Shown one piece after another: positions 1-64,000 of a stretch of DNA of 64,000 nt. This stretch comes from an uncultured Kiritimatiellota bacterium (lineage in GTDB: Bacteria > Verrucomicrobiota > Kiritimatiellia > RFP12 > DVOR01). The translations under genes were made by a program, and so were the position numbers. How positions within the stretch are numbered: position 1 is the first letter of the stretch; each line of letters opens with the position of its first letter. The stretch spans positions 1-64,000 of the forward strand of contig CALXMT010000006.1 in assembly GCA_944389545.1 (NCBI GenBank). The letters run 5' to 3'. Below the pieces are notes generated by a model. That model did not search any database, had not been told where the DNA came from, and saw only the letters and a program-made list of their open reading frames with translations.

Positions 1-1050
1 AAGTTCCCTTTCTAGATTAACTTGGCCTCCATTCTCTGTCTCCCAATCACACGTTAAAAAACGTGTGAAAGTCCTTCCTATAGGGGTCTTTGGCCGACCC
101 TATAGTGGTCCGGGGCGACGGATGGAACCGCTGGAAGGGCGTGGAGGGTTTGCCCTGCGGGGCTGACACGAAGGTTCACGAAGAACCACGAAGACACACG
201 AAGACTGCCAGAATAGTTGGGAATCACAAAGGACACCGTGCAGGCGCGAAGCGACAAACCTTCCACGGCTAAGGACACAAAGGGGGCGACGCAGGGGGCG
301 GGCCGTGCGTGCGCGCAAGGCGCACGTCCGGCCCGGGGGCCTGAAGGGGCATGGCGGGCTTCGCACGCCATGCTTTGGTTTTTTGGGAGTCCTCCGGCGC
401 AGCTCCGTCCTATAGGTCCTATACGTCCTATATGTCCTACCGCGCTGTCCTTCTGGCACGTCGCAGACGTGCCGGGGGTGCAGGTGCAATTGGAAGCTTG
501 GAAGCTTAGAGGTTTAGAGGCTTGGAGGAGCCACAGAGGTTGGAGCCTGGGCTGCCGCCCTTGGCGGCGATGAGGCCGCAAGGGGCGCTGACGCGCCCCG
601 GAGAACGGAAAACGGAGAACGGAGAACAGAGCGCGCGCAAGCGCGCGACGGATAGGCCGCTGTACAGGGGATTTGTCCATCGCGCGTTTACGCGCGCTCC
701 TGCATCTCCTGTATCTCCTGCTGGGGCGTCCTTCTGGCACGTCGTAGACGTGCCGGGGGTGCAGGGAGAACTTCTCCCTGCCGGGGCGTGGGGCAGCGCC
801 CCACATTCCAATCAGCCAATCTCCCAATCAGCCAATTCCCTTTTGTGTCCTTTGTGTCCTTTGTGATTTTCAATCCATTCTGGCAGACCTTCACCCTTCG
901 TGCTCCTTCGTGGTTCTTCGTGAATCTTCGTGTCAGCCCCGCAGGGTAAACCTTCCACACTCTCCCAGCGGCTCCATCCGTCGCGCGCTTGCCGCGCGCT
1001 CTGTTCTCTGTTCTCTGTTCTCCGGGGCGGCGCTAGCCGCCCCAATTGTG
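1..1050. repeat. Intergenic mosaic of dispersed repeats, no gene
   Basis: No credible gene is seen here. The stretch is a patchwork of short modules that recur in other gaps of this window: a 'cacgaaggttcacgaag' module with 'ccctgcggggctgacac' (about 150-215, inverted copy at 895-985), the palindrome GGCACGTCGCAGACGTGCC (455-473, and a variant at 736-754), a 9-nt 'tcctatang' array (about 403-440), a 'ttggaagcttagaggtt' module (about 487-550) and 'gttctctgttctccgg' runs (about 1003-1025). Apparent reading frames are on both strands and have repeat-derived, low-complexity translations. Confidence 0.8.
74..111. repeat. Short CTATAG array (two units)
   Basis: Two CTATAG cores start at 78 and 100, flanked by GACC/GGTC-like arms. 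This is a minimal version of the 23-bp-period arrays at 22274-22464, 38743-38846 and 63733-63863. Confidence 0.6.
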
Positions 1051-2953: not shown

Positions 2954-3026
2954 CCCAAGGGTTCGCCCGCGCACCCTATAAGGGGCGCGTCCCGGGCCTT
3001 ATAGGGTTCGCCCAAGAACCCTCAAG
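2954..3026. repeat. Decayed CTATAG-type array
   Basis: Cores CTATAA (2976), TTATAG (2999) and CTCAAG (3021), with a weaker one near 2954, are spaced 22-23 nt apart and carry CCC/GGG arms. This matches the period of the better preserved arrays elsewhere in the window. The rest of 2813-3088 holds no gene that I can support. Confidence 0.5.
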
Positions 3027-11456: not shown

Positions 11457-11877
11457 AGAAGTTTGGAAGCTTGGGCGCTGACGCGCCCTGAGGAAGTTTG
11501 GAAGCTTAGAGGTTTAGAGGCTTGGAGGAGCCCCGGAGGTTGAAGCCCGGCCCGCCGCCCCCGGCGGCGATGAAGCCGGTCCCTGCAAAGACGGCGAGGG
11601 GGAACCGCAGATTTCGCGGATTTGTTGCAGATTAAGGGCGTGCTAGCGCACGCAGGACTGCCAGTGTGGGGAAACGCAGATGTTTCTTCGCTTCGCTCGA
11701 AAGACCTTCGGTAGTTCACAGATTTTGGTAGATTAAGGGCGTGCTAGCGCACGCAGGACGCATAAGTGGAAGTTTGGAGGCTTGGAAGCTTGGCAATATC
11801 CCACCCCTCTCACTCCGTCGCCCCGCAGGGGCGTCCGTTCTCCGTTCTCCGTTCTCCGTTTTCCAAGGAATAAGACC
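11457..11877. repeat. Intergenic mosaic of dispersed repeats
   Basis: Contains the 'ttggaagcttagaggtt' module with a CCGCCCCCGGCGGC-like hairpin (about 11460-11575), the palindromic GCGTGCTAGCGCACGC unit twice (near 11640 and 11740), and a 'gttctccgttctccg' run just before the next gene. No gene is seen. The ribosome binding site of the GH16 gene (AAGGAA, 11865-11870) lies directly in the end of the repeat block. Confidence 0.75.
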
Positions 11878-18180: not shown

Positions 18181-18950
18181 GTGTGGTCTTACGCGGTTGT
18201 GAGTTGAAGAACGATGGACACAACAAACGACATGAGCATCCCCGCGGATTTCACATCATCATCACTATCGCACAACGCCCCCTCCTTGTCAAGGAGGGCC
18301 GCTTCTCCGCCCCTCCTGTCCTTCCCACGAAGGCACAAGGGGCGCTGTCGCGCCCCGGAGAACGGAGAACGGAGCGTGCAGGCCTAAAAAGCCAAACCTT
18401 CCACGGCCACAGAGAACGGAACGCGCGGCAAGCGCGCGACGAAGAAGCCGCTGTGCAAGCGGCGTCAGCCGCCGTCCTATATGTCCTATAGGTCCTATAT
18501 GTCCTACCGCGCCGCCTGTTGGCACGTCGCAGACGTGCCGGGGGTGCAGGGAGAACTTCTCCCTGCCGGGGCGTGGGGCAGCGCCCCACATTCCTCCAAT
18601 CAACCGATCTGCCAATCAGCTAATCAGCCAAAAACCTTTGTGTCCTTTGTGTCCTTTGTGATTTCCAATCCATTCTGGCAGTCCAGCCGGCGGTAGCCGG
18701 CCCCTAATCGGCTTTAATCTGCGTAATCGGCGGTTCCCCTCGCTGGCAGTCTTCGTGTCCCTTCGTGGTTCTTCGTGTCCTTCGTGAATGCCGCGCAGCG
18801 TCCGGTCTCATCGCCGCCGGGGGCGGCGACCCGGGATTCAACCTCCGGGGCTCCTCCAAGCATCCAAACCTCCAAGCTTCCAAGCTTCCACTCTCGCGAC
18901 TTATGACTTATTGCGAGGCGGCTCTCGCGCAAAGTTTCGCCATGTAGAAT
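18181..18950. repeat. Intergenic mosaic of dispersed repeats
   Basis: From about 18290 come the 'gcgccccggagaacggag' run, 'gtgcaggcctaaaaagcc', a 9-nt 'tcctatang' array (about 18475-18505), the palindrome GGCACGTCGCAGACGTGCC (18521-18539), the 'tttgtgtcctttgtg' tract, the 'cttcgtggttcttcgtg' tract and an inverted copy of the 'aagcttcc' module (18810-18890). The first 100 nt hold nothing recognisable. No gene is supported. Confidence 0.75.
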
Positions 18951-21654: not shown

Positions 21655-22122
21655 ATGAGACGTCGTCAAGCCATCAAGCGCGTCCACCAGACCGACCCCC
21701 GCTTCAACAGCGAGCTCGTCGCCAAGGTCGTCCGCACCCTCATGAAGTCCGGCAAGAAGACCACCGCCGAGCGCATCGTCTACGGCGCCATCGAGGAACT
21801 CGCCAAGGAAACCGGCAAGGATCCCCTCGAGGTCATGGATGCCGCCATCAACAACATGAAGCCCAAAGTCGAGGTCAAGAGCCGTCGCGTCGGCGGCGCC
21901 ACCTACCCGGTGCCCGTCGAAATCCGCCCCGGCCGCCAACTCGCCCTCGCCCTCCGCTGGATGGCGCAGTATGCCGCCGCCCGCCGCGGTGTCCCCATGC
22001 CGCGCGCCGTCGCCCTTGAGCTCATTGATGCCTACAACAACACCGGCAACGTCCTCAAGAAGCGCGACGACACCCACAAGATGGCCCAGGCCAACAAGGC
22101 CTTCGCCCACTACGCCTTCTAA
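21655..22122 (+). CDS. rpsG: 30S ribosomal protein S7
   Basis: 155 residues of uS7, the organiser of the 16S 3' domain: MRRRQAIKRVHQTDPRFNS, LMKSGKKTTAERIVYGA, VEVKSRRVGGATYPVPVEI, and the C-terminal helix KRDDTHKMAQANKAFAHYAF. AGGAGGCG precedes the ATG. It ends the two-gene transcription unit with a strong terminator. Confidence 0.97.
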   Translation: MRRRQAIKRVHQTDPRFNSELVAKVVRTLMKSGKKTTAERIVYGAIEELAKETGKDPLEVMDAAINNMKPKVEVKSRRVGGATYPVPVEIRPGRQLALALRWMAQYAAARRGVPMPRAVALELIDAYNNTGNVLKKRDDTHKMAQANKAFAHYAF

Positions 22123-22148
22123 GGCCCCCGCGCCCAGCGCGACAAAAA

Positions 22149-22180
22149 GCCCCCGACCTTCCCGGTCGGGGGCTTTTTTT
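22149..22180 (+). terminator. Rho-independent terminator of rpsL-rpsG
   Basis: Stem GCCCCCGACC/GGTCGGGGGC with a 5-nt loop and a run of seven T; A residues on the left would let it work from both sides. Confidence 0.92.
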
Positions 22181-22273: not shown

Positions 22274-22464
22274 AGCCCCCCGCTTCAGACCCTATAGCCC
22301 CCCGCTTCAGACCCTATAGCCCCCCGCTTCAGACCCTATAGCCCCCCGCCTTGGACCCCTATAGGGTCTCGCCTCGGACCCCTATAGGGTCTCGACCCCG
22401 ACCCTTATAGGGTCTCACCACGGACCCCTATAGTGGTCGACCGCCGCCCCCTATAGGGTCTCCC
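22274..22464. repeat. CTATAG array, eight units with 22-23 bp period
   Basis: Cores start at 22292, 22314, 22336, 22359, 22382, 22405 (TTATAG), 22428 and 22451. The first three units are nearly identical 22-mers containing CCCCCCGCTTCAGACC; the rest are 23 bp and carry GACCC/GGGTC arms that make each unit a near-palindrome. Nothing codes here. From 22465 to 22679 follow 'ggagattcaggagatgcag', a palindrome-like 'ggcacatcgcagacatgcc' and 'cttgccacccctgccaggg', parts of the general repeat mosaic. Confidence 0.8.
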
Positions 22465-25123: not shown

Positions 25124-25680
25124 GCGGGGCGGCGTTCGCCGCCCCGGAGAACGGAGAACAGAGCGTGCAGCGGCGAAGCCGCAAACCTTCCACGGCCACA
25201 GAGAACAGAGAGCGCGCGGCAAGCGCGCGACAAATGGGGCGGTGGGCGTAATGCCTGCCGCCCTATCAGTTACTATAAAGGGAACCGCAGATTTCGCAGA
25301 TTAGGGCAGATTTGGGGCCGGCTACCGCTGGCAGGACTGCCAGAATATTTTTCAATCACAAAGGACTCAAAGGATATTTGGAGGATTGGGGATTGGAAGG
25401 TGTGGGGCGCTGCCCCACACCCCGGCAGGGAGAAGTTCTCCCTGCACCCCCAGCACGTCTGCGACGTGCCATTAGGCAACGAGGTAGGACACATAGGACA
25501 CATAGGACGTATAGGACGTATAGGACGTATAGGACGAGTAGGACATATAGGACATATAGGACATATAGGACGGCGGCTTCGCCGCTTTGCTCACGGCTTC
25601 TCCGGTCGCGCGCTTGTCGCGCGTTCTGTTCTCTGTTCTCTGTTCTCTGGGGCGCGTCAGCGCCCCTTCTTATTCCTAAG
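25124..25680. repeat. Intergenic mosaic of dispersed repeats
   Basis: Starts with the hairpin GGGGCGGCGTTCGCCGCCCC right after the PepSY stop, then 'gtgcagcggcgaagccgc', 'tggggcgctgccccacacc', a palindrome (25452-25470), the 9-nt array at 25489-25572 and 'gttctctgttctctggggc'. An open frame crosses this block into rplM, but its translation is repeat-derived (runs of RTYRTYRT) and is not taken as coding. Confidence 0.75.
25489..25572. repeat. 9-bp minisatellite (TAGGACNNA)
   Basis: About nine to ten consecutive 9-mers (taggacaca, taggacgta, taggacata). Shorter versions lie near 403-440 (inverted), 18475-18505 (inverted), 29668-29702, 39238-39266 and 42757-42795, mostly 10-15 nt from the GGCACGTCTGCGACGTGCC palindrome. 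Confidence 0.85.
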
Positions 25681-29139: not shown

Positions 29140-30170
29140 CAAGGCCGCCAAAAAGGAGAACAGAGCGTGCAGCGGCGAAGCCGCAAACCTTCCACGGCCA
29201 CGGAGAACGGAACGCCCCTGCGGGGCGACGGATGGGGCGTTGGGAGAGCGTGGGAGGTTTACCCTGCGGGGCTGACACGAAGGTACACGAAGGACCACAA
29301 AGGTTCACGCAGGACTGCCAGAATGGGAAACCGCCGATTACGCAGATTGGAGCCGATTAGGGGCCGGCTACCGCCGGCAGGACTCCAGAATATTTTTCAA
29401 TCACAAAGGACACGAAGGACACAAAGAGGATTTTGGCTGATTAGCTGATTGGATGTGTGGGGCGCTGCCCCACGCCCCGGCAGGGGAAGGGCGCTTTCGC
29501 GCCCTGGAGAACGGAGAACAGAGAACGGAGAACAGAACGCCCGACAAGCGGGCGACAGGCGAAATAGTTGTACAACGAGAAAGCCAAACTTCCAAGCATC
29601 CAAGCTTCCAAACTTCCACTTTCCCCTGCACCCCCGGCACGTCTGCGACGTGCCAATAGACTGCGCGGTAGGACATATAGGACGTATAGGACGAATAGGA
29701 CGGAGCTGCGCCGGAGGACTCCCCAAAACTAAAGCATGGCGTGCGAAGCCCGCCATGCCCCTTCAGGCCCCCGGGCCGGATGTGCGCCTTGTGCGCACGC
29801 ACGGCCCGTTCCCTGCGTCGTGCTCTTTGTGTCCTTTGTGGTTTCTAAAGACACACTGGCAGTCCTGCGTGCGCTAGCACGCCGCCCGTCTCTGTGACCC
29901 TCTGTATCCTCTGTGCCACTCTGTGTTCTTCCGCAATCTGCGGTAGCCGTGGAAGGTTTGGTGCTTCGCACCTGCACGCCCCACACTGGCAGTCTTCGTG
30001 GTTCTTCGTGAACCTTCGTGTCAGCCCCGCAGGGTAAACCTTCCACACTCTCCCAGCGGCTTCGCCGGTCGCGCGCTTGCGCGCGTTCCGTGGCCGTGGA
30101 AGGTTTGGCGCTTCGCGCCTGCACGCTCTGTTCTCCGTTCTCCGGGCGGCTGGCATCGGCCGCCCAAAAA
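29140..30170. repeat. Intergenic mosaic of dispersed repeats
   Basis: One of the richest blocks: 'gtgcagcggcgaagccgc', 'ccctgcggggctgacacga' with 'ggtacacgaaggacc' (29260-29310), 'ggggcgctgccccacgcc', the palindrome (29636-29654), the 9-nt array (29668-29702), a block with 'aagcatggcgtgcgaagcc' (29735-29815) that recurs inverted at 290-385 and direct at 39285-39375, and 'cttcgtggttcttcgtgaa' (29995-30015). No gene is supported. Confidence 0.8.
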
Positions 30171-38351: not shown

Positions 38352-39599
38352 GTTTGGGGCGCTACCGCGCCCCTTTTGGAAGTTTGGAGGCTTGGATGTT
38401 TGGAAGCTTGGAGGAGCCCCGGAGGTTGAAGCTCGGGCCGCCGCCTTTGGCGGCGATGAGACCGGATGTTGAAAAGACTGTCAAGGGAACCGCAGATTTC
38501 GTAGATTGGTTGCAGATTAAGGGCGTGCTAGCGCACGCAGGACTGCCAGAATGGGGCGTGCAGGTGCGAAGCACCAAACCTTCCACGGCTACCGCCGATT
38601 ACGCAGATTGGTTGCAGATTAAGAGCGTGCTACCGCACGCGGATTGGTTTGGACAGCGGCTTGTCCGTCGCGCGCTTGTCGCGCGTTCTGTTCTCCGTTC
38701 TCCGTTCTCCGTTCTCCGGGGCGGCGCAAGCCGCCCCTTCCGAGACCCTATAGTGGTCCGAGGTCAACCACTATAGTGGTCGGGGTCGAGACCCTATAGT
38801 GGTCGGGGTCGAAACCCTTAAGGGTCCGCGGAGACCCCTTTTAGGGCGTGCAATGGAGGCTTGGAAGGTTGGAAGTTTGGAGGCTTAGAAGGGAGGGCGG
38901 CTGACGCCGCCCGGAGAACGGAAAACAGAGCGTGCAGGCCCAGAGGGCCAAACCTTCCACGGCCACGGAGAACGGAGCGCGCGGCAAGCGCGCGAAGGGT
39001 GGGGCGCTGGGAGGGTGTGGGAGGTTCGCCCTGCGGGGCTGACACGAAGGGGCACGAAGAACCACGAAGGTTCACGAAGACTGCCAGAATATTTGGAAAT
39101 CACAAAGGACACAAAGGGGATTTTGGCTGATTGGCTGATTAGCTGATTGGAGGGTGTGGGGCGCTGCCCCACGCCCCGGCAGGGGGAAACACCCCCTGCA
39201 CCCGCAGGCACGTCTGCGACGTGCCAGAAGGACGACGCGGTAGGACATATAGGACATATAGGACGGGGCTACGCCGAAGGACTCCCCAAAACCAAAGCGT
39301 GGCGTGCGAAGCCCACCATGCTCCTACAGGCCCTCCGGGCCGGACGTGCGCCTTGCGCGCACGCACGGCCCGCCCCTGCATCGTACTTTGTGTCCTTCGT
39401 GTCCTTTGTGATTCCCAAAACACACTGGCAGTCCTGCGTGCGCTAGCACGCCCTTAATCTGCTCCAAATCTGCGAAATCTGCGGTTCCCTCTCTCGCAGT
39501 CTTTGCGGGTTTCGGTCTCATCGCCGCCAGGGGCGGCGGGCCGGGCTTCAACCTCTGGGGCTCCTCAAAACTTCCAAGCCTCTAAGCTTCCAAACTTCT
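38352..39599. repeat. Intergenic mosaic of dispersed repeats
   Basis: The longest block. In order: the 'ttggaggcttggatg' module with its GCCGCCTTTGGCGGC hairpin (38376-38465), GCGTGCTAGCGCACGC (38523-38538), 'gtgcaggtgcgaagcacc', 'gtcgcgcgcttgtcgcgcg', the CTATAG array (38743-38846), 'gtgcaggcccagagggcc', the 'ccctgcggggctgacacga' tract, the palindrome (39207-39225), a 9-nt array (39238-39266), the 'accaaagcgtggcgtgcg' block, and inverted copies of the first modules. No gene is supported. Confidence 0.8.
38743..38846. repeat. CTATAG array, about five units with 23-bp period
   Basis: Cores CTATAG at 38748, 38771 and 38794, CTTAAG at 38817 and a decayed one near 38840, exactly 23 bp apart, with GACC/GGTC arms; one unit reads ACCACTATAGTGGT, a perfect palindrome. 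Confidence 0.8.
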
Positions 39600-41908: not shown

Positions 41909-42254
41909 GTGCCGGGGTGGCCAATCGCCCGCGCAAGCGGGAGGAAAGTCCGGACTCCACAGAGCGGGAAGACCGGCTGTAATGGCCGGTGGGCGCGGGG
42001 CAAACCCGCGCGACGGAAAGTGCCACAGAGACAAACCGCCGCCTTCGGGCGGTAAGGGTGAAAAGGTGGGGTAAGAGCCCACCGGCGGCGGGTGAAAGCC
42101 CCCGCGCAAGGCAAACCCCTTCCGGAGCAAGCCCAAATAGGCGGAGAGGCGCTGCTCGCGCCGACAACGGCTTCGGCCGAATCCGCGGGTTGGGTGCTTA
42201 GTTTGATGATTGGCGCCCGCAAGGGTACAGAACTCGGCTTATAGCCCCGTGCAC
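41909..42254 (+). ncRNA. rnpB: RNase P RNA (bacterial type A)
   Basis: Catalytic RNA for tRNA 5' maturation. Seen: the conserved GAGGAAAGTCCGGACTCCAC of P4/CR-I near the 5' end, GACGGAAAGTGCCACAGAGA, the GGTAAGGGTGAAAAGGTG region, GAGCAAGCCCAAATAGGC, and the 3' universal ACAGAACTCGGCTTATAG. P1 forms between GTGCCGGGGT (41909-41918) and AGCCCCGTGCAC (42243-42254). No own promoter is obvious; it may be processed from the upstream message. Confidence 0.95.
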
Positions 42255-42256
42255 GC

Positions 42257-42284
42257 GCCCCGGCGGTCTCCGCCGGGGCTTTTT
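42257..42284 (+). terminator. Rho-independent terminator of rnpB
   Basis: Stem GCCCCGGCGG-tct-CCGCCGGGGC followed by five T. Confidence 0.92.
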
Positions 42285-42289
42285 GCGGC

Positions 42290-42955
42290 TTGCCGTAAAA
42301 AAAGGAGAACAGAGAACGGAGAACAGAGAACGGAGCGCGCGGCAAGCGCGCGACGGACGGGGCGTTGGGAGAACGTGGGAGGTTCGCCCTGCGGGGCTGA
42401 CACGAAGGGGCACGAAGAACCACGAAGGTTCACGAAGACTGCCAGAATATTTGGAAATCACAAAGGACACCGTGCAGGCGCGAAGCGACAAACCTTCCAC
42501 GGCTAAGGACACAAAGGGGATTTGGGTTGATTGGCTGATTAGCTGATTGGGTGATTGGAGAATTGGAAAGGTGTGGGGCGCTGCCCCACGCCCCGGCAGG
42601 GAGAAGTTCTTCCTGCACCCCCGGCACATCTACGATGTGCCAACAAGCACGATGGAATAATAGCGCTGAAGAAGCCAAGCCTCCAAGCCTCTAAGCTCCC
42701 AAACTTCCACTTACCCCTGCACCCGCAGGCACGTCTGCGACGTGCCAACAGTCGGCGCGGTAGGACGTATAGGACATATAGGACGAATAGGACGGGGCGG
42801 CGGGGCCGCCTGGATTACGGCTTTGCCAGTCGCGCGCTTGTCGCGCGTTCCTGTATCTCCTGCACCTCCTGTATCTCCTGAAAGCGCTTTGCCGGTCGCG
42901 CGCTTGCCGCGCGCTCTCTGTTCTCTGTTTTCTGTTCTCTGTTCTCTAGACGTTG
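42290..42955. repeat. Intergenic mosaic of dispersed repeats
   Basis: Contains the 'gagaacagagaacggag' run, the 'ccctgcggggctgacacga' tract, 'gtgcaggcgcgaagcgac', 'ggggcgctgccccacgcc', two palindrome copies (about 42617 and 42728), a 9-nt array (42757-42795) and 'ctcctgcacctcctg'. The end abuts the nnr stop codon. No gene is supported. Confidence 0.75.
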
Positions 42956-55423: not shown

Positions 55424-56095
55424 TGATAGACGAGGCTTGGAGGCTTGGAAGTTTGGAGGAGCCCCGGAGGTTGAGGCCCGTGCTGCCGCCCCTGGCGGCG
55501 ATGAGGCCGGATGTTACGCGGCAAGTGCGAGGACTGCCAGTGTGGGGAACCGCAGATTCCGCAGATTTGTTGCAGATTAAGGGCGTGCTGGCGCACGCTG
55601 ATTGCCAGTGTTTTTTTGGAAATCACAAAGGACACGAAGGACACAAAGAGTATTGGCTGATTAGCTGATTGGAGGGTGTGGGGCGCTGCCCCACGCCCCG
55701 GCAGGGAGAAGTTCTCCCTGCACCCCCGGCACGTCTGCGACGTGCCCATGAACACGCCCCACAGGAGATTCAGGAGCGCGCGTAAACGCGCGACGGACGA
55801 AGGCGCTGGGAGAAAGAATCAAGCCTCCAAGCTTCCATTATGCGTCCTGCGTGCGCCAGCACATCCTTAATCTACTCAAAATCTGTGTTACCGAAGGTCT
55901 TTCGAGCGAAGCGATGAAACAATCTGCGGTTCCTCCCTTCGTGTGGCTTCGTGGTTCTTCGTGAATCTTCGTGTCAGTCCCGCAGGGTAAACCTTTCACG
56001 TTCTCCCAATGCCCCATCCGTCGCGCGCTTGCCGCGCGTTCTCTGTTCTCTGTTCTCTGTTTTCTGTTCTCTGGGGCGCCAACGGCGCCCTCGCC
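55424..56095. repeat. Intergenic mosaic of dispersed repeats
   Basis: The 'ggcttggaagtttgg' module with GCCGCCCCTGGCGGC (55436-55505), GCGTGCTGGCGCACGC, 'ggggcgctgccccacgcc', the palindrome (55728-55746), 'cttcgtggttcttcgtgaa', 'cagtcccgcagggtaaacc' and 'gttctctgttctctg'. No gene is supported. Confidence 0.75.
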
Positions 56096-63690: not shown

Positions 63691-63732
63691 AGTCGCCCTC
63701 ATTCCCTGTGGAATCTTTAAGGGGGCTTCACG

Positions 63733-63863
63733 AGACCCTATAGGGATCCGAGTTCAACCACTATAGGGGTCCGCATTGAGACCCTATAGTGGTCCGAGGT
63801 CGACCCCTATAGTGGTCCACATCGAGACCCTATAGTGGTCCAGGGCCGACCCCTATAGGGTCT
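63733..63863. repeat. CTATAG array, six units with exact 23-bp period
   Basis: Cores start at 63738, 63761, 63784, 63807, 63830 and 63853, each exactly 23 bp apart. Arms are ACC(C/A) before and (T/G)GGTC(C) after in most units, so each is a near-palindrome of about 16 bp followed by 7 variable bases. Confidence 0.85.
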
Positions 63864-64000
63864 CAGAGGGGAACGTGCGATAGTCTTTGCTTTATCCGTC
63901 GCCCCGCAGGGACGCTCTGCTCTCCGGGGCGGCGTTTAGCCGCCCCACTAATCAGCTAATCAGCCAATCAGCTAATCAGCCACAAAAAGGGCGAGCCCCA
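63864..64000. repeat. Intergenic mosaic of dispersed repeats (window edge)
   Basis: 'cgtcgccccgcagggacg', the GGGGCGGCGTTTAGCCGCCCC hairpin and the 'aatcagctaatcagcc' tandem run to the end of the window. No gene is seen. Confidence 0.65.

Follow-up and report, generated by a model that had tools for sequence, protein, structure and literature searches.

Intergenic palindrome arrays with a 22-23 bp period recur with unrelated sequences in gut Kiritimatiellae

The window, meaning the whole stretch of DNA analysed here (positions 1-64000 of contig CALXMT010000006.1, called C6), belongs to a 2.53-Mb draft genome from the gut Kiritimatiellae that is labelled G000, with G003 as its sister species; among the relatives of one protein encoded in the window are Candidatus Spyradenecus and further MAGs of Kiritimatiellae or Lentisphaeraceae. 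It carries several arrays of a short palindrome with the core CTATAG (Table 1). In the six-unit array all five steps between cores are exactly 23 bp, while those of the eight-core array are 22, 22, 23, 23, 23, 23 and 23 bp. The eight-core array starts 161 bp past the end of the S7 gene, beyond that gene's separate intrinsic terminator, and is also found at the same position in G003; the terminator itself is retained in most congeners that lack the array. The array at 38739 is a copy of a common master element, with steps of 23, 23 and 23 bp followed by a CTTTTAG-like remnant. A first-pass annotation of the same DNA had described six cores with an exact 23-bp period at 63733-63863, eight cores at 22-23 bp at 22274-22464, two cores at 74-111 and decayed units at 2954-3026, all of which are borne out, with the qualifications that the step at 74-111 is 22 bp and not 23 and that the decayed units amount to one pair. 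Its five cores at 38743-38846 were correct as to the 23-bp steps and generous as to the count, there being four clear cores plus a remnant. A second dispersed repeat, consisting of tandem 9-mers of the TAGGACGTA/TAGGACATA type in up to 9.7 copies, occupies several intergenic regions, and GTTCTCC 7-mers, AATCAGCC 8-mers and TTGGAAGC 8-mers are other recurring short intergenic tandem repeats.

Table 1. Coordinates of arrays and other features in the window and, where a contig or locus is named, in related genomes
Feature	Position	Strand	Remarks
Six-palindrome array GACC-CTATAG-GGTC	63729..63866	.	Between convergent genes; cores span 63738-63858
Eight-core array	22283..22464	.	Cores 22292-22456, one of them TTATAG
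Three CTATAG, one CTTAAG and one decayed outer unit	38739..38846	.	First core at 38748
Two CTATAG units	74..111	.	Cores at 78 and 100, 22 bp apart
Decayed units CCTATAAGG / CCTTATAGG, 23 bp apart	2954..3026	.	Decayed pair at 2974-3007
Ribosomal protein S7 gene (sequence reading)	21655..22122	+	Upstream of the array at 22283; anchor for orthologous sites
Intrinsic terminator of the S7 gene (read from sequence)	22144..22180	+	Separate from the array at 22283
TAGGACGTA/TAGGACATA-type 9-mers	406-439, 18474-18506, 25485-25571, 29669-29702, 42761-42794		
7-/8-mer tandem repeats (GTTCTCC, AATCAGCC, TTGGAAGC)	599-631, 11834-11864, 25625-25649, 38690-38718		
7-/8-mer tandem repeats, further sites	56038-56073, 808-840, 63948-63982, 38376-38412		
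RNase P RNA (class A)	41909-42258		Well above threshold
Two TTCATACYRGTATGAA arrays of G013	C2:726-810, C16:35087-35171		Each no more than about 750 bp from the end of its contig
Cas9-like or IscB-like protein of G007 (by eye)	L041:5934-8231		766 residues
Cluster of TTATCAACA DnaA-box-like sites	L049:20300-20410		Directly adjoining a CTTAAG-type array

Counted across the 2.5-Mb genome G000, as the first-pass annotation had proposed, the pattern CTATAG-N17-CTATAG gives 137 exact pairs against 0 for the reversed-pattern control, and 12 pairs with at most one mismatch in the window compare with 0 in 100 shuffles of it, so that chance spacing does not account for the arrays. Detailed mapping covered 855 kb of G000 (contigs C1-C6 in stretches) and 421 kb of G003, where a position matrix found 60 arrays of 3-8 units and none in reversed sequence. 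Among neighbouring CTATAGs no more than 80 bp apart in these 1.28 Mb, 107 are separated by 23 bp and 6 by 22 bp, 10 by 46 bp and 4 by 45 bp, with 10 at all other distances; 180 of the 249 CTATAGs fall inside arrays.

The unit consensus is GACC(C/A)CTATAG(T/G)GGTC, a dyad without a loop. In most units GACC/GGTC touches the core on one side and stands one base off on the other (77 and 67 units); in the rest it is gapped from it on both sides (64 units) or on neither (4 units), and the asymmetric GAGACC-CTATAG-TGGTC is commoner in G000 than the symmetric unit. The arrays usually end in CTTAAG units set off by a 22-bp step, beyond which come more weak units of the CTAAAG/CTTTAG or CAAAAG kind. The arms of the CTATAG family occur in two alternative forms, with an information content of about 1 bit per position; wide variation is limited to about three positions in the middle of the spacer. 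The earlier description of kept arms around a variable 7 bp therefore stands for the palindromes and their fixed period and fails for the spacer, which is not free in G000.

Genes are avoided altogether (0/60 arrays inside one), with 24 arrays in convergent, 25 in same-strand and 11 in divergent gaps; an early impression that divergent gaps are array-free was refuted by this larger sample. An array is present in 24 of 59 long convergent gaps (41%) as opposed to 36 of 235 elsewhere (15%, P=5e-5). How an array is oriented does not depend on the direction of transcription (12:9 relative to the gene strand, P=0.66), which indicates a role at the level of DNA and not of RNA. Compared with a null that assigned arrays at random to intergenic gaps of matching types, the distances between arrays are too even (CV 0.55 vs 0.84, P=0.004; 0.65 vs 0.90, P=0.034), for which operon structure could partly account. 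Separate intrinsic terminators are commoner at gene ends that face an array (19/48 vs 10/76, P=0.001; in a second comparison 13/25 vs 47/182, P=0.01). Both the even spacing and the siting beyond terminators are compatible with use by the host and with mere tolerance alike. No gene type common to the array neighbourhoods was found, and a G003 gene between the close arrays C2:138342 and 139776, considered as a transposase, is by eye a leucine-rich-repeat surface protein.

Copying has clearly contributed to this distribution. Because they share the order of units and spacers, 25 of the 60 arrays were judged to be recognisable divergent copies of one element of about 130 bp, whose flanking sequence is not conserved; conservation within the genome thus overstates selection. 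The first-pass annotation had named copying as the alternative that would undo its reading, and this is true in part, namely of these 25. Between G000 and G003 (median protein identity 96%, 87 reciprocal best hits), five gaps with an array have conserved neighbours, and four of these carry it in both genomes, with units gained or lost in whole 23-bp steps; at two of the shared orthologous sites no array was seen in any of 12-13 congeneric species. CTATAG pairs number 137 in G000, 293 in G003 and 52 in G013, where the sampled arrays carry other arms, and three CTATAG in a row occur in 5 of 388 genomes of the phylum. The CTATAG family is missing from most congeners and so is not essential. The close sister G008 has instead a CTTAAG form with a 22-bp step, present as 151 pairs, copies of which share a tail beyond the array. 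The arrays are lineage-specific, and by their dispersal and lineage-specific expansion they also behave as interspersed elements. Seven matches to the triple pattern in viral contigs proved by eye to be unrelated and without GACC/GGTC arms. At one locus a cluster of DnaA-box-like sites lies beside a CTTAAG-type array (Table 1).

The geometry is found beyond these words. A word-free scan for three palindromes in a row at an equal step, applied to 1.70 Mb of DNA drawn from further genomes in the order, returned 12 triples with a step that is not a multiple of three, of which 11 are at 22 bp (4) or 23 bp (7 distinct) and one has another such period between 13 and 44 bp, an excess with a rough P of 4e-11. 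Ten further cases have steps in multiples of three and look like coding repeats, judging from their GC-rich, codon-periodic sequence. A 400-kb control from S. meliloti pSymB and E. coli gave no palindrome triple at any step. The palindromes at 22-23 bp are mutually unrelated and include TTCATACCGGTATGAA and others: ACCCTATAGGGT, TTGGGCTATAGCC and TTCATACYRGTATGAA in G013, CCCTTATAAGGG in G005, AAACCCTTAAGGGTTT in G008 (Spyradenecus), TTGCTATAGCAA with six positions in register in G044, a member of another family, and GTCTCACAGTGAGAC in G423, where four units 23 bp apart make up one locus. Arrays of four units recur with different words, and the geometry is strictly kept even where a family comprises a single array or two (in G044, in G423 and in the TTCATAC family of G013). 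In this last family, that of TTCATACYRGTATGAA, units are 85% identical and spacers 26%, which is about random, while all six spacers are 7 bp long; this argues for selection on the palindromes and their spacing and not on the spacer letters, a pattern that would fit selection on fixed-distance palindromes and not copying alone. Both arrays of this family lie near a contig end, perhaps a sign that a longer repeat continues past it. In G007, about 250 bp separate the start of the Cas9-like or IscB-like protein from an array of GACACGCCGTGTC palindromes with a 22-bp period. The array format outlasts its sequence, in that the spacing is kept while the words differ between species.

A limited literature search found no matching description of such arrays, in agreement with the first-pass statement that no family of this form is described, and the nearest kind is REP/BIME. 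These are likewise dispersed intergenic palindromic repeats with more than 50 copies, near-identical copies and lineage-specific families, and both kinds favour convergent and same-strand gaps; high-copy intergenic dispersal is evident here from 60 arrays in 1.28 Mb with none in genes. REPs prefer convergent and unidirectional gaps, occur in enterobacteria, pseudomonads and Verrucomicrobia such as Opitutus, and in their CGTC form have been reported without a dedicated transposase (PMC3733652). However, REP units are hairpins of 20-40 bp tagged GTAG or CGTC, the GTAG ones tied to RAYT transposases, whereas the arrays consist of 3-8 loopless dyads of 14-16 bp in exact 22-23 bp phase. The unit profile has neither a GTAG or CGTC tag nor a 20-40 bp hairpin, and a reading as RAYT-driven REPs failed since no match to a cognate RAYT (Y1_Tnp, PF01797) was found in G000 or G003 (drafts that are 96% and 92% complete). 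Because tagged hairpin and RAYT were both looked for and not found, the arrays are not filed as REPs, which together with BIMEs are their nearest relatives in behaviour.

Other systems share single traits. Like MITEs, the arrays are short, non-coding, dispersed elements with roughly inverted outer parts (segments CCCCTAAAGGGGCCTTTCTGAGACC and its complement were seen), a likeness of form and dispersal, while no empty site, target duplication or parent transposase was seen; unlike in MITEs, the outer repeats are additional palindrome units that keep to the same 22-bp phase. Cooperative operator arrays (lambda cI, ArgR) and plasmid iterons or centromeres consist of palindromes or iterons at steps of about 21-24 bp that are bound side by side. 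The step is similar, but those systems are single loci, as opposed to 60 arrays in 1.3 Mb and several unrelated words across species. CRISPR, which also has regular palindromic repeats, is excluded as the first-pass annotation had maintained: its repeats measure about 23-50 bp and its unique spacers about 20-70 bp, whereas the arrays occupy many loci, their repeats are not of CRISPR length and their spacers are 7-9 bp, those of 7 bp being partly shared between loci.

Binding of dimers at the level of DNA, which the first-pass annotation had suggested for palindromes at a fixed period, is the most economical reading of the sequence, and it is favoured by the loopless dyads, the unbiased orientation, the intergenic position and a spacing that is conserved while the sequence changes. 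The further notion of a row on one face of the helix has to be given up: with 10.5 bp to a turn, 23 bp equal 2.19 turns, and successive dimers would be rotated by about 69 degrees (about 34 for 22 bp). We propose that the arrays are rows of sites for homodimeric DNA-binding proteins that touch their neighbours, and that these rows have spread as interspersed elements, an account that we regard as evenly poised between right and wrong. One dimer would sit on each 14-16 bp palindrome, contact between adjacent dimers would hold their centres 22-23 bp apart, and the row would twist gently with a step of about 2.1-2.2 turns. As short interspersed elements, rows of 3-8 units would come to be scattered over the chromosome and be tolerated or kept just past the ends of transcription units, mostly in convergent gaps and more evenly than chance. 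The specificity of the binder may drift or be replaced while the oligomer geometry stays, and different palindromes in the same geometry are as expected from such a change. The asymmetric units of G000 speak against the model, as a simple homodimer does not predict them. The patterns themselves are observed; the protein, the touching of its dimers and whatever part the rows may play at boundaries or in organising the chromosome are inferred from them.

The main competitor, which we consider rather unlikely, is that the arrays are non-autonomous selfish repeats of MITE or REP type without a host role, whose unknown transposase needs the palindromes and their period and whose insertion sites are simply harmless. 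The 25 copies with unconserved flanks, the shared tail of the G008 copies, an expanded family of its own in each species, the absence of arrays from two orthologous sites in congeners and the siting past terminators all agree with this; it is harder to reconcile with the lack of a Y1/RAYT transposase in G000 and G003 and of any transposase between closely paired arrays, with the strict geometry of families of one or two arrays and with the more even than random spacing. Slippage, by which tandem repeats would grow neutrally in a repeat-rich genome, could draw on the many other short intergenic repeats of G000 and on the exact 23-bp steps of gain and loss, but is already disfavoured, and to our minds very improbable, given the random spacers beside kept palindromes in G013, a period common to unrelated sequences and near-identical arrays at many loci.

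Clustered operators of an ordinary transcription factor are improbable as well. Operators of the phage lambda type are also about 23-24 bp apart, a resemblance that might suggest a regulon, and the single array of G044 lies upstream of a glutamine synthetase gene; yet relatives of this glnN without an array led to its rejection as a general promoter mark (the same search turned up the new word of G423), the 24 arrays between convergent genes have no promoter to regulate, and a single operator regulon is hard to square with wide dispersal and with flanking genes that share no function. A role as transcribed hairpins that terminate transcription or stabilise mRNA, which has been proposed for REPs, seems highly improbable: the palindromes fold and mostly lie at 3' ends, but their orientation to the gene strand is random, their dyads pass through the centre without an unpaired loop, and intrinsic terminators (a GC hairpin with a T run) were rejected with only 4 of 60 arrays scoring as such and a separate terminator often present. 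Since the arms vary among families, the conserved CTATAG was also considered as the loop of a hairpin; this was dropped, as the dyads of other families have no loop and no strand bias is seen.

The usual view of interspersed bacterial palindromes is that they are hairpins which RAYT transposases move about. What is conserved here is the spacing of dyads, kept while words change by species and in genomes where no RAYT was found, and the main new result is that the 22-23 bp format outlives its sequence across the order. Extending the dimer-row model to the gut Kiritimatiellae as a whole, a tentative possibility is an order-wide class of elements set by geometry, bound by fast-diversifying oligomerising dimers, that would mark transcription-unit boundaries or organise the nucleoid. 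If confirmed, this would point to an unknown family of oligomerising DNA-binding proteins, and the spacing would serve as a simple handle with which any genome could be searched for such elements by their geometry. The arrays would also offer a testable system in which a binding protein would co-evolve with dozens of sites at once.
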